Assembly: GCF_030385785.1 (NCBI RefSeq)
Contig: NZ_JAUEDK010000007.1
Location: 62,001 to 126,000 of the forward strand
Direction: 5' to 3'
Source: Crenobacter oryzisoli
GTDB taxonomy: Bacteria; Pseudomonadota; Gammaproteobacteria; Burkholderiales; Chromobacteriaceae
DNA length: 64,000 bases
The notes beneath the pieces were generated by a model. The model searched no databases. It saw only the letters and a list, made by a program, of their open reading frames with translations, and was not told the origin of the DNA. The position numbers and the translations under genes are program-made. Shown piece by piece: positions 20,394 to 49,645 of this stretch (positions are counted from its first letter, which is position 1; every line of letters starts with the position of its first letter).

Positions 20394-20480
20394 TATTGCG
20401 GTGATTGGTAGGATGGGTGGAGGGGCTGGTGGCGCAACCCATCATGCTTTCTGGCAAACATGGGAAGCAGATTGTGGGTT

Positions 20481-21164
20481 TGTCGGTCTCGCCCGACCGG
20501 CGACCTCCTTTCTTTGCTTCGCCAAAGAAAAGGAGGCAAAGAAAGGCGACCCCCGCGACGCCGGCCCGCTTTGCGGGCTGCCCTGCGGGCGCCACGGCCA
20601 ACGGGCGGCTGCGCAACTCGCGCCGGCGTTGCCGGCACTCGAGCAGTGCTCGCCGACATCCCCCGTTGGCCGCGCCGTCCTCGGCGGCGTCGAAGGGGAT
20701 GGGGAGGTTGTCGGTGGCAATCGCTCAGTTTGTTTGGAAAAACAGTGGGTTGCTTGGGCTGGCTACGGCTGTGGGCAAAATGGCTCATCGGCATCTTGCT
20801 GTGGATAACCGCAAAAGTTGGTCGAACGGCGTCATCTCATCGGAGAGGACGGATTCGGTCAGTGTTGATGAGTCAGTCCCAAACCTGGTATCGCTTTTAA
20901 AACCTACCGACTCTACTACCGCCGCAATCGACCTGCCCCTCCCCCTTTGCGCTGCCGAGCGATCGTCAAGCGGCCAGGTTTTAAGCCGCCGCATGTTCGA
21001 GCGGGCGGACGTTAGCCGCCCGCGAGTTCGGCGGCGCCTGGCCGCTTGGCAGGCGCGAGGGAAGCCGAAGGCCTGCGCATCGGGGGTCGCCTTCTTTTGT
21101 CTACTTTTCTTGGCGAAGCAAGAAAAGTAGACCGCCCCGCCGGGCGGGACCGGCGCTGCGACAA
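20481..21164. repeat. Large inverted-repeat intergenic element, copy 1 (about 684 bp)
   Basis: Non-coding element whose two halves are diverged inverted repeats. The left end begins TGTCGGTCTCGCCCGACC and the right end is its degenerate reverse complement. Just inside are two hairpins: 20504-20536 (loop CTTCGC) and 21099-21132 (14-bp perfect stem, loop GCGAAG). Copy 2 lies at 46688-47415 in the same orientation and shares long stretches such as GCTGCCGAGCGATCGTCAAG near the right half. The centre contains a DnaA-box 9-mer (20800-20808). Upstream, 20410-20443 forms GATGGGT...ACCCATC. Open frames here are Arg/Pro-rich artefacts. There is no transposase. Confidence 0.75.
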
Positions 21165-31421: not shown

Positions 31422-32486
31422 ATGGCACTCGTTTCGATGCGACAGCTGCTGGACCACGCCGCCGAGTTCGGCTACGGTCTGCCGGCGTTCAACGTGAACA
31501 ACCTCGAGCAGATGCGCGCAATCATGGAAGCGGCCGACAAGGTCGACGCTCCGGTGATCGTGCAGGCTTCGGCCGGCGCGCGCAAATACGCCGGCGCCCC
31601 GTTCCTGCGCCACCTGATCCTGGCCGCGGTCGAAGAATTCCCGCACATCCCGGTGGTGATGCACCAGGACCACGGCACCAGCCCGGACGTATGCCAACGC
31701 TCGATCCAGCTGGGCTTCAGCTCGGTGATGATGGATGGCTCGCTGAAGAGCGACGGCAAGACCCCGGCCGACTATGCGTACAACGTCGACGTGACCCGCA
31801 CCGTGGTCAACTTCGCCCACGCCTGCGGCGTGTCGGTGGAAGGCGAGATTGGTTGCCTGGGTAGCCTGGAAACCGGCATGGCCGGTGAGGAAGACGGCGT
31901 CGGCGCCGAGGGCGTGCTCGATCACTCGCAGCTGCTGACCGACCCGGAAGAAGCGGCGCAGTTCGTGAAGGACACCGGCGTGGACGCGCTGGCGATCGCG
32001 ATCGGCACCAGCCACGGCGCCTACAAGTTCACCCGTCCGCCGACGGGCGACATCCTGGCGATCGACCGCATCAAGGCGATCCACGCGCGCCTGCCGAACA
32101 CCCACCTGGTGATGCACGGCAGCTCGTCGGTGCCGCAGGAATGGCTGGCGATCATCAACGAGTTCGGCGGCGAAATGCCGGAAACCTACGGTGTGCCGGT
32201 GGAAGAGATCGTCGAGGGCATCAAGCACGGCGTGCGCAAGGTGAACATCGACACCGACCTGCGCCTGGCATCGACCGGCGCGGTGCGCCGCTTCCTGGCG
32301 CAGAACCCGTCCGAGTTCGACCCGCGCAAGTTCCTGGCGGTATCGACCGTGGCGATGCGCGACATCTGCATCGCGCGCTACGAAGCGTTCGGCGCGGCCG
32401 GCATGGCCAGCAAGATCAAGGCGATCAACCTCGACACCATGGCGGCCAAGTACGCCAAGGGTGAGCTGGCGCAGATCGTCAAGTAA
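31422..32486 (+). CDS. fba: Fructose-bisphosphate aldolase, class II (CbbA/Fba type)
   Basis: Zinc-dependent aldol cleavage or condensation of fructose 1,6-bisphosphate. 354 aa, with [25 protein letters not shown] quoted as [14 protein letters not shown] and [11 protein letters not shown]. Zinc ligands are in [10 protein letters not shown] and [11 protein letters not shown]-terminal [13 protein letters not shown] and [13 protein letters not shown] bind phosphate. The ATG follows GGAGACACAG. A TACAAT at 31344 could be its own -10. Its terminator is split by a MITE. Confidence 0.96.
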
Positions 32487-32507
32487 GCGGGGATCGAACC
32501 CCTAGCA

Positions 32508-32671
32508 ATGCCGCCCGAGGGGCGTAATGCCGTTCACTTAAGCCGTTCAGTCCGGATTTTAGCTTCGAAGAACGCTTGGAAGTAACAAAAAAGCACCGTT
32601 TTTCCACCTTGGTGGGCGGTGCTTTTTCCTTAAGTGAACGGCATTAGCCCGAGGGGCGGCATTTTTTTTGT
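32508..32671 (+). terminator. fba intrinsic terminator, split by a MITE
   Basis: The left arm ATGCCGCCC (32508-32516) plus GAGGGGCG is followed by the 122-bp MITE. The right arm GGGCGGCAT (32654-32662) with TTTTTTTT comes after it. Removing the MITE and one target copy restores a perfect GC hairpin with an eight-T tail. Confidence 0.8.
32525..32646 (+). mobile_element. 122-bp MITE, copy A
   Basis: 18-bp perfect terminal inverted repeats TAATGCCGTTCACTTAAG / CTTAAGTGAACGGCATTA, flanked by the 12-bp duplication GCCCGAGGGGCG. It is identical over all 122 bp to copy B (46399-46520), which is inverted. It contains the hairpin GCACCG...CGGTGC with A- and T-runs on both sides (about 32588-32628), an intrinsic terminator. 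11-13 bp target duplications are typical of IS4-group transposition, so the parent element is probably of that group (inference). Confidence 0.92.
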
Positions 32672-46327: not shown

Positions 46328-46398
46328 TGAGTTGTCGGCGGCGTTGATTGTGGAGGTCCGGCACGACCTGCCCTTGCCCTGAAGGCAGAGCCGAGGGG

Positions 46399-46520
46399 TA
46401 ATGCCGTTCACTTAAGGAAAAAGCACCGCCCACCAAGGTGGAAAAACGGTGCTTTTTTGTTACTTCCAAGCGTTCTTCGAAGCTAAAATCCGGACTGAAC
46501 GGCTTAAGTGAACGGCATTA
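46399..46520 (-). mobile_element. 122-bp MITE, copy B
   Basis: Reverse complement of copy A with no differences over 122 bp. It is flanked by the 11-bp duplication GAGCCGAGGGG. The target resembles the copy A target (both contain CCGAGGGG). The internal terminator hairpin is at about 46416-46458. Confidence 0.92.
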
Positions 46521-46687
46521 GAGCCGAGGGGGCCGTTTGCTATGCCCACCTCCTGCTCGGGTAGCGTCTTGCCGGCGCTGCCGGTGCGGCTGCTCGAACG
46601 GTTGCCGTTGGCTCAACACGTAGGATGGGTGGAGACGCTGGTGTCGTCCCCCTCTTGTTGTTTGGCCAAGGTGAGTGGGAATTGCTG

Positions 46688-47415
46688 CCTTGTCGGTCTC
46701 GCCCGACCGGCGAGTTCCTTTTAGCTACGCAGCAACTTCGTTGTCTTGCTTCGCCAAGAAAAGGAACCAAAAGAAGGCGACCCCCGCGACGACGGCCCGC
46801 TATGCGGGTGGCCCTGCGGGCGCCACGGCCAACGGGAGGCTGCGCAACTCGCACCGACTGCGTCGGTACTCGGACAGTGCTCGCGACTACCCCCGTTGGC
46901 CGCACCGTCCTCGGCGGCGGCGAAGGGGATGGAGGTGGTTGTTTGCAACTGACGTGAAGGGGCTCGGTTTACCCCGTGGCCTTGCGGCGTGATGGCTGCG
47001 TTTTCTGGTCTCTGTGGATAAAGTTCAGGTTGGCGACTTTGCTGTGGATAAGCGAAGGTTGGCTGAACAGGATGGCTGCAACTTCGATTAAGTGTCCGGT
47101 TGGTGAAAGCGTCGTTGTTCGGCAAACGTTAAGTGCGCATAGAGTATGCCGCGACGTTTTCCTTACGTTGTCCCAACCGCTGCAGTCGACTTGCTCACCC
47201 CCCTTCTGCGCTGCCGAGCGATCGTCAAGCGGCCAGGTCTTAAGCCGCCGCTTGTTTGAGCACCGCGATGTTAGCGCGGGGCGAGTTCGGCGGCGCCTGG
47301 CCGCTTGGCAGGCGCGAGGGAAGCCGAAGGCCCGCGCGGTGGGGTCGTCTCTCTTTGGGTACTTTCTTTGACGAAGCAAAGAAAGTACCTCGCCGGTCGG
47401 GCGAGACCGACAAGG
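46688..47415. repeat. Large inverted-repeat intergenic element, copy 2 (728 bp)
   Basis: Bounded by perfect 27-bp terminal inverted repeats (46688-46714 beginning CCTTGTCGGTCTCGCC; 47389-47415 its exact reverse complement). Subterminal hairpins: left 46714-46767, with a 22-nt insertion that is itself hairpin-like, and right 47358-47389 (13-bp perfect stem, loop ACGAAG). The middle has two perfect DnaA-box 9-mers (47013-47021 and 47043-47051). It is homologous to copy 1 at 20481 in both halves. No ORF with a ribosome site or homology, no transposase. Confidence 0.8.
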
Positions 47416-49069: not shown

Positions 49070-49645
49070 TCAGTTCTGCGTGGGCTGTTTCGGCGCTGGG
49101 TTAGTGCTGGGTGACTGGCCCGCTACGTCATTCTTCGTGGCGTTCAGGCTGTGCCGGTCGGCGGCACGCTCTTGCCCCTTGTCGTGATCCGCCGCCCTCA
49201 GCCCATTCGAGTTCAGCGCGCCCTTGTTGCTGACGTGCGCCAGGTTATGCGCTTTGTCGCTCTTCAAGTCGTGCCGGTCAGCGGCACGCTCTTGCCCTTC
49301 GTCGCGATCCGCCGCCTTCAGCCCATTCGAGTTCAGCGTCTTCTTGCTGCCGATGTGCGTCTTGCTGTGGTGATGGGTTTTGCCGCTCTTCGAGCTGTGC
49401 CGATCAGCGGCCCGCTCGCGTCCCTTGTCGCGGTCCGTCGCATTCAGCCCGTTCGAGTTCCGCACGCTTTTGCTGCTGACAGGTGCAGCGGCGTTGCCGC
49501 TGGCATGGTTCGCGCTATGCGCGCTGCCATCATGTCCGCCGCCATGGCCGCCACCGCTACCATGACCATTGCCGCCGGCGAAGGCGAGGCTGCCCGCCCC
49601 AAAGAGGGCCACTGCCGCCACTACGGCCAGAGTCTTGCTCGACAT
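49070..49645 (-). CDS. Secreted repeat protein with three NSNGLxAxDxDxGxERAADRH units, 191 aa
   Basis: The signal peptide (about 1-23, ending LAFA) is fixed by the ATG at 49645 after GGGAGAA. After it comes a Gly/His-rich stretch (GGNGHGSGGGHGGGHDGS), then three repeats at residues 63-83, 105-125 and 145-165, each close to NSNGLKAADRDEGQERAADR, separated by Ser/Lys/His linkers. Asp/Asn-rich repeats with nearby His clusters suggest metal binding (inference). Similar Asn-Gly/Asp repeats occur in small exported proteins of other proteobacteria, function unknown. Confidence 0.8.
   Translation of the reverse strand: MSSKTLAVVAAVALFGAGSLAFAGGNGHGSGGGHGGGHDGSAHSANHASGNAAAPVSSKSVRNSNGLNATDRDKGRERAADRHSSKSGKTHHHSKTHIGSKKTLNSNGLKAADRDEGQERAADRHDLKSDKAHNLAHVSNKGALNSNGLRAADHDKGQERAADRHSLNATKNDVAGQSPSTNPAPKQPTQN

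Follow-up and report, generated by a model that had tools for sequence, protein, structure and literature searches.

What leads a short mobile element to settle exactly within the terminator of a gene? The question is raised by the window analysed here, a stretch of 64,000 nucleotides of the Crenobacter oryzisoli genome, in which one of two copies of a MITE (copy A, Table 1) lies 26 bp (stop codon to left duplication) downstream of fba, which we take to encode fructose-bisphosphate aldolase. Removal of the MITE and of one duplication gives the site AATGCCGCCCGAGGGGCGGCATTTTTTTT, which folds as RNA into a perfect 10-bp stem with a 3-nt loop and eight Ts (-17.4 kcal/mol), starting 20 bp past the fba stop codon. 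This reconstruction confirms the initial annotation, in which the same deletion had been said to rebuild a perfect fba hairpin with eight Ts, and it shows that the MITE splits the fba terminator at its apex. At this site TTT is present on the right while AAA is absent on the left. In G001, a genome of the same genus whose fba is 96 % identical over the 587 bases queried, the terminator is intact (AATGCCGCCCCAAGGGGCGGCATTTTTT) and carries no element.

Table 1. The two MITE copies of the window and the fba terminator (positions are those of the window)
Feature	Position	Strand	Details and basis
fba	31422..32486	+	ORF of 354 aa; gene whose terminator was hit
Split fba terminator, left part	32507..32524	+	AATGCC + duplication; intact orthologous terminator in same-genus G001
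Target-site duplication of copy A, left	32513..32524	.	12 bp, GCCCGAGGGGCG
MITE copy A	32525..32646 (T32525-A32646)	.	122 bp; repeat and duplication comparison
Terminal inverted repeat, left	32525..32542	+	18 bp, TAATGCCGTTCACTTAAG
Terminator-like hairpin inside the MITE	32587..32627	.	A6-GCACCG...CGGTGC-T5; RNA fold, both strands
Terminal inverted repeat, right	32629..32646	-	18 bp, CTTAAGTGAACGGCATTA
Target-site duplication of copy A, right	32647..32658	.	12 bp, GCCCGAGGGGCG
Split fba terminator, right part	32647..32669	+	with T8; sequence
Target-site duplication of copy B, left	46388..46398	.	11 bp, GAGCCGAGGGG
MITE copy B	46399..46520	.	reverse orientation to copy A, downstream of ydcH; sequence comparison
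Target-site duplication of copy B, right	46521..46531	.	11 bp, GAGCCGAGGGG

The element has the traits of a MITE: it is 122 bp long, contains no transposase gene, has inverted repeats, is flanked by duplications of 10-13 bp and occurs in 24 copies. Indeed, a search of the whole genome yielded 23 full copies and one that is split between contigs C2 and C116, the outer flanks of which have a common 13-bp duplication; judged from its letters, the sequence that interrupts this copy is presumably an IS110-type element. The two parts of the split copy (L024, C116:123-222, and L025, C2:466-493) share their duplication at a terminator apex. Once rebuilt, 23 of the 24 sites reach a hairpin score of at least 15, the sole exception being that of copy B, and 22/24 do so with a stricter score confined to the site itself. 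None of the 23 placed copies lies inside a predicted ORF, as judged by a home-made gene caller that is based on third-position GC and can miss genes. The initial annotation had proposed to collect all genomic copies and to see how many lie in terminators, most copies in genes or at non-terminator sites being the outcome that would speak against its idea; the collection places 23/24 at the apex of a terminator-like hairpin. Five sites were looked up in G001: at fba, L013, L016 and L022 an intact terminator without insertion was found, and the flank of copy B, the fifth, could not be followed there.

Copy B lies downstream of a gene that we take to be ydcH. Its site is the weakest hairpin among the 24 own sites (score 9.4), with AAA still present on one flank and TT on the opposite one. 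Being the one poor hairpin of the set, it has to be withdrawn as the second terminator example that it had initially been taken for. The word CCGAGGGG is present at both window sites, as had been noted, but it is not a shared target word, since among 50 unique sites only the 2 of the window contain it; its presence at both looks like a coincidence. The window holds other repeats as well. The blocks 20471-21126 and 46681-47413, 26 kb apart, form an intergenic mosaic of direct and inverted copies that are 70-92 % alike by piece, the second block starting about 160 bp from copy B, and a 97-nt unit occurs three times at 49143-49485 (77-85 % identical, spaced 120-126 bp).

The geometry of the target was read from 50 unique sites with both flanks known (54 before the removal of four elements read from both strands; L154, which is without a matching duplication, was left out of the site counts). 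Counted from the cut, A stands at -7, -6 and -5 in 82, 90 and 94 % of these sites and T at +5, +6 and +7 in 92, 92 and 82 %, which makes the A and T tracts the most conserved columns. Strict AAA and TTT are found together at 16/24 own sites, 11/26 sites of other genomes and 5/15 sites of E. coli IS4; at least two of three As together with at least two of three Ts are found at 24/24, 22/26 and 13/15, respectively, against a background of 1.3 % of the intergenic positions in this genome. The duplications measure 9-14 bp overall, mostly 11-12. Because the A and T columns stand at a fixed distance and the duplications are of 9-14 bp, the target is AAA-N4-[duplication]-N4-TTT with a GC-rich and self-complementary middle, which is how an intrinsic terminator is built, and the cuts lie around its apex. 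By sequence, most sites have this make-up: they lie downstream of a gene and consist of a GC stem-loop with a T-run after it. The cut position varies to a similar degree around the apex (sd 0.87 and 0.85) and when counted from the A- or T-tract (sd 1.06 and 1.30), so that either may be the feature that sets the cut. A relation between duplication length and tract spacing (rho 0.30, p 0.05) was not used as evidence.

How unusual such sites are was gauged on a 464-kb sample made up of the window and 20 further stretches of this genome, in which intergenic DNA accounts for about 18 % of positions. The hairpin score alone is weak evidence because 14.8 % of 20,000 random positions reach 15; its combination with the tracts is not, as a score of at least 15 with AAA and TTT nearby on their respective sides is found at 0.015 % of random positions, and a hairpin with either tract, the class to which the fba site belongs, at 0.4 %. 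The same 464 kb contain 59 intergenic AAAN17-21TTT clusters, hereafter ruler sites, of which 21 are hairpins, as against 23/24 of the targets (binomial 8e-10, or 2e-8 for 22/24, with sites taken as independent and the 59 clusters unmatched for GC content next to the cuts). When right halves were re-dealt among the own sites, mean pairing fell from 21.9 to 11.2 (sd 0.73), and likewise from 18.3 to 9.5 for the sites of other genomes and from 19.3 to 10.9 for those of IS4. Self-complementarity is thus a property within each site and not of a consensus. Intervals between convergent genes hold 19 of the 23 placed copies versus 4.2 % of background positions. Since 10 of the 21 ruler sites with a hairpin are also found between convergent genes, the excess of the MITE shrinks to a Fisher p of 0.025; beyond what terminators as such explain it is modest, and we dropped it as main evidence.

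Which transposase could move the MITE? At contig ends of this genome there are fragments of an IS whose ends are those of the MITE. The N-terminal fragment of its transposase matches Nterm_IS4 (PF13006, 2.5e-29) and the C-terminal one DDE_Tnp_1 (PF01609, 9.9e-10), both above the curated cut-off, and NF033592 (IS4) is the best match of both, with 114.4 and 96.6 bits against a cut-off of 115 that applies to the whole protein. The Y-2-R-3-E-6-K motif is present in the C-terminal fragment (YQERWHIETSYRELK), and the ends of partner and MITE, TAATG, agree with the -AATR of subgroup IS4. Judged by these sequence traits, the partner is an IS4-subgroup insertion sequence. No complete copy was found in this assembly, in which its open frames reach at most 239 aa apart from a distant gene on C51; elements of 1427 bp with the same repeat occur in Thaumasiovibrio, and the length of subgroup IS4 is 1400-1650 bp. 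Among the partner ends examined, a subset of all matches comprising 21 distinct left and 4 right ends, AAA is in place at 20/21 left ends versus 3.7 % of the background, and an inner hairpin with a score of at least 8 at 21/21 versus 27 % of intergenic positions with AAA. Four of these left ends are joined to right ends through identical duplications of 12-13 bp. The MITE and the partner IS have inverted repeats and target type in common, and the MITE is probably mobilised in trans by this resident IS. The more distant IS4-like gene on C51 (L165, C51:15000-18500; 48 % identity, 457-aa open frame) belongs to an element whose ends resemble those of E. coli IS4 (AATGCCAGTCAGTTAAG) and whose flanks look terminator-like by eye.

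The inverted repeat is not confined to Crenobacter: at least 109 stretches from other genomes contain it, most of them, judging from the titles, of gammaproteobacteria and Chromobacterium relatives and a few of other phyla. The foreign matches number at least 113; 28 were paired into elements (24 distinct) by a duplication with at most one mismatch, doubtful pairs that combine a single mismatch with a poor inverted repeat (e.g. L062 and L112) being kept, and 85 are unpaired. Among the matches listed, 112 ends were counted after one with less than 30 bases of flank was dropped; not all are independent, some being both ends of one element. AAA is in place at 95 of these 112 ends versus 13.5 % of the background, and 17 are without it. 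An inner hairpin is found in 64 of the 95 with AAA, versus 17.9 % of position-matched AAA controls, and the other 31 are without an inner hairpin of score 8; at loci below 50 % GC the inner hairpin is found in 39/59 versus 15.5 % of controls. Again among the matches listed, 21/26 paired sites outside this genome pass the strict score of 15 and 5/26 fall below it. Pairing therefore matters beyond the tracts, as indicated by the ruler sites, by these foreign AAA-matched controls and by the loss on re-dealing. In Elusimicrobia MAGs (L052, L067, L083 and L121) the same 17-bp repeat stands beside other sequences, with mixed target types, and may represent a separate MITE lineage or chance.

The target of E. 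coli IS4 itself is AAAN20TTT, a spacing equal to the 4 + 12 + 4 bp between the tracts described here, and an IS4 insertion is known in the pheST attenuator, which contains a terminator; to our knowledge, no general terminator rule was drawn from these cases. In the open-licence literature we found no paper giving AAAN20TTT and no published statement of the terminator-target rule or of older forms of it, which may be published elsewhere. From 2739 E. coli records that contain IS4 we sampled 24, one place per record: K-12 and 23 chosen from 60 listed, favouring several copies or varied identity. One place (L239), whose duplication was not found, was left out, and the bamD and adhE alleles were merged by hand, which gives 12 loci. 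Nine of them are terminator hairpins, named after their annotated neighbours: crr/pdxK, pstS/glgP, ymcF/cold-shock gene, bamD, fumB, adhE, glcA, a TerD-family gene and metK. The remaining three, the K-12 site (L217), an oxidoreductase gene and yicI, are poor hairpins, the two in genes being L219 and L224. Without merging, there are 14 distinct site sequences, 11 of which score at least 15 (15 and 12 with a wider window). Because copy B, 5/26 sites of other genomes and 3/12 E. coli loci are poor hairpins, the hairpin seems to be favoured rather than obligatory. With these exceptions, the core idea of the initial annotation, that of an element targeting terminator hairpins, is supported and turns out to be wider, since it extends to the partner IS, to other genera and to E. 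coli IS4. The terminator after bamD is occupied by IS4 in several records (L222, L227, L233 and L240) and that after adhE in both orientations (L234, L237 and L239); both are perhaps recurrent IS4 sites.

These elements also carry hairpins of their own. The MITE core GCACCG...CGGTGC is flanked by A- and T-runs and folds at -16.0 kcal/mol on the + strand and -14.5 kcal/mol on the - strand. A simple terminator scan recognised in it a 5-pair stem on the + strand only, with hits about as in shuffles, and is not very informative, since it accepts only loops of 3-8 and the MITE hairpin is two-tiered. From the strong bidirectional terminator described initially, the hairpin, its A- and T-runs and the folds on both strands are retained; the scan gives a short stem and one strand, and strong termination in both directions is a prediction. 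At its left end the partner IS has a 14-bp hairpin followed by Ts (-20.3 kcal/mol), and IS4 has a similar fold (-18.7 kcal/mol) at the end that carries the transposase stop codon. In two genomes of the same family (G015 and G052), in Chromobacterium amazonense and in C. piscinae, related MITEs keep GCACCG...CGGTGC and the T-run, even though that of G052 is only 73 % identical over its whole length; the hairpin may thus be of use to the element. An end hairpin with a T-run was recognised in 50/106 foreign ends among the matches listed, those with less than 60 bases inside being left out. It is plausible that insertion is transcriptionally neutral, as had been suggested for fba, and such replacement hairpins fit this. 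The related MITEs (L089, L111, L123, L134 and L084 in Chromobacterium, L151-L154 in G015 and G052) are nearly the same length; apart from the conserved hairpin their sequence differs, and their sites are mostly terminator-like.

We propose, with a probability of roughly 87 %, that the MITE is a passenger of the IS4 subgroup and that the transposase picks self-complementary sites of the form AAA-N4-[9-14 bp]-N4-TTT, in practice intrinsic terminators. The MITE would be non-autonomous and would depend on an IS of which this genome has many copies, the terminators picked here lying mostly between convergent genes. The two cuts would fall some 4 bp inward of the A-tract and of the T-tract, and the duplicated 9-14 bp would then correspond to the apex of the hairpin (loop and inner stem), with a length that varies by site. 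The terminator hit would be split and the element would supply a hairpin with a T-run; in the MITE this hairpin is internal, and the partner IS and E. coli IS4 each have theirs at one end. This proposal builds on features documented by the sequences themselves, namely the target geometry, the terminator-like form of the sites, the pairing within each site, the family of the partner and some empty sites. We infer that the transposase recognises the hairpin or dyad directly, and termination would be preserved after insertion. The preference for terminators seems to lie with the IS4-subgroup transposase and not to be a peculiarity of the MITE, and selection may sharpen the terminator pattern as well. 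A broader version, in which IS4-subgroup transposases, that of E. coli IS4 included, are guided by the structure of a terminator dyad or extruded cruciform flanked by an A-tract and a T-tract and the elements carry replacement terminators, a ‘safe harbour’ at gene ends that this DDE transposon class would have evolved convergently with group IIC introns, is tentative and to us somewhat less probable than its opposite.

Other explanations have to be weighed against this proposal. The transposase could read a sequence ruler only, made of an A-tract, about 20 bp and a T-tract, with terminators being common among such non-genic sites. Indeed, no columns are more conserved than those of the tracts (A in 82-94 % at -7..-5, T in 82-92 % at +5..+7), the exceptions with a poor hairpin (copy B and E. 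coli L217, L219 and L224) retain at least two of three As and two of three Ts, and AAAN20TTT is the IS4 target of the older literature. However, a ruler alone leaves unexplained that only 21/59 ruler sites are hairpins versus 23/24 targets, that self-complementarity resides within each site and is lost when halves are re-dealt, and that hairpins are also enriched in genomes below 50 % GC, and we consider it unlikely. It is less likely still that termination as a process, and not DNA sequence or structure, attracts the transposase, through paused RNA polymerase, an RNA-DNA hybrid or local supercoiling. The 19/23 own copies between convergent genes would suit such an attraction, and a passage of the paper on REP targeting (PMC1525189) brings up, for Tn5 and ISRm22, supercoiling in the intervals between convergent genes, but cuts that are symmetric and keep a fixed distance from both tracts speak for direct contacts with DNA, and sites with little terminator character are used too.

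Finally, insertion could be near random, with selection sparing only those copies that fell into harmless terminators. While the lack of own copies in predicted genes and their position mostly between convergent genes would be expected from such a process, and while a passage of a paper on Pseudomonas fluorescens repeats argues likewise for tail-to-tail positions, selection alone would hardly put the duplication on the apex with cuts about 4 bp inside both tracts. Moreover, only a hairpin-sized part of the roughly 18 % of intergenic positions is used, and some IS4 copies persist inside genes. This last explanation seems to us very improbable, and targeting of the self-complementary site by the transposase is the reading that we retain.

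How does this targeting compare with known systems? The survey of De Palmenaer et al. (2008, PMC2266710) gives, in the part concerning subgroup IS4, ends in -AATR, duplications of 10-13 bp and the YREK motif, and the partner resembles this subgroup in its -AATR ends, its YREK motif and duplications within that range. The word terminator is absent from the main text of that survey, its target Figure 3 aside. According to a passage of Tobes and Pareja (2006, PMC1525189), the IS4-family element ISRm22, assigned to subgroup IS4Sa (in the relevant part of PMC2266710), lies in REP palindromes at all its copies, with insertion at the axis of palindromy. Insertion into the axis of a palindrome is thus shared with the elements studied here, whereas ISRm22 has a conserved REP target and direct repeats of six bases. 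A single conserved target sequence of the REP type was not found for our elements: the target letters vary freely between sites, and what persists is the pairing and the tracts.

Group IIC introns make use of terminator-type hairpins, as stated in a section of a review (PMC3898094), but they rely on a reverse transcriptase and, by the title of a reference therein, insert after terminators, whereas here a DDE transposase would act and insertion is into the apex. Our elements are not such introns, as the partner encodes a DDE transposase and the MITE has inverted repeats and target duplications. Other bacterial MITEs, in passages of a review (PMC10969869) and of the paper on MITEAba12 (PMC6382973), are likewise short and geneless, with target duplications and ends common with those of a resident IS. 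MITEAba12 differs by its preference for AT-rich targets without a sequence trend and, according to the passage concerned, by its lack of a predicted terminator. That terminators could be formed by MITEs is considered conceivable in a passage of the same review (PMC10969869), which cites the SPRITE repeat.

If this reading is true, the founding IS4 subgroup gains a target rule that makes biological sense: to land in gene ends and to replace what was broken. The rule may explain the specificity that the 2008 survey termed spectacular, and it predicts where new copies land. It would also make the DDE transposase of the IS4 subgroup a direct test case for the reading of DNA secondary structure by such an enzyme. 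Should the replacement terminators function, these would be mobile elements that make their own insertion tolerable, and landing in a terminator while bringing along a stop signal could let such an element spread with little harm.
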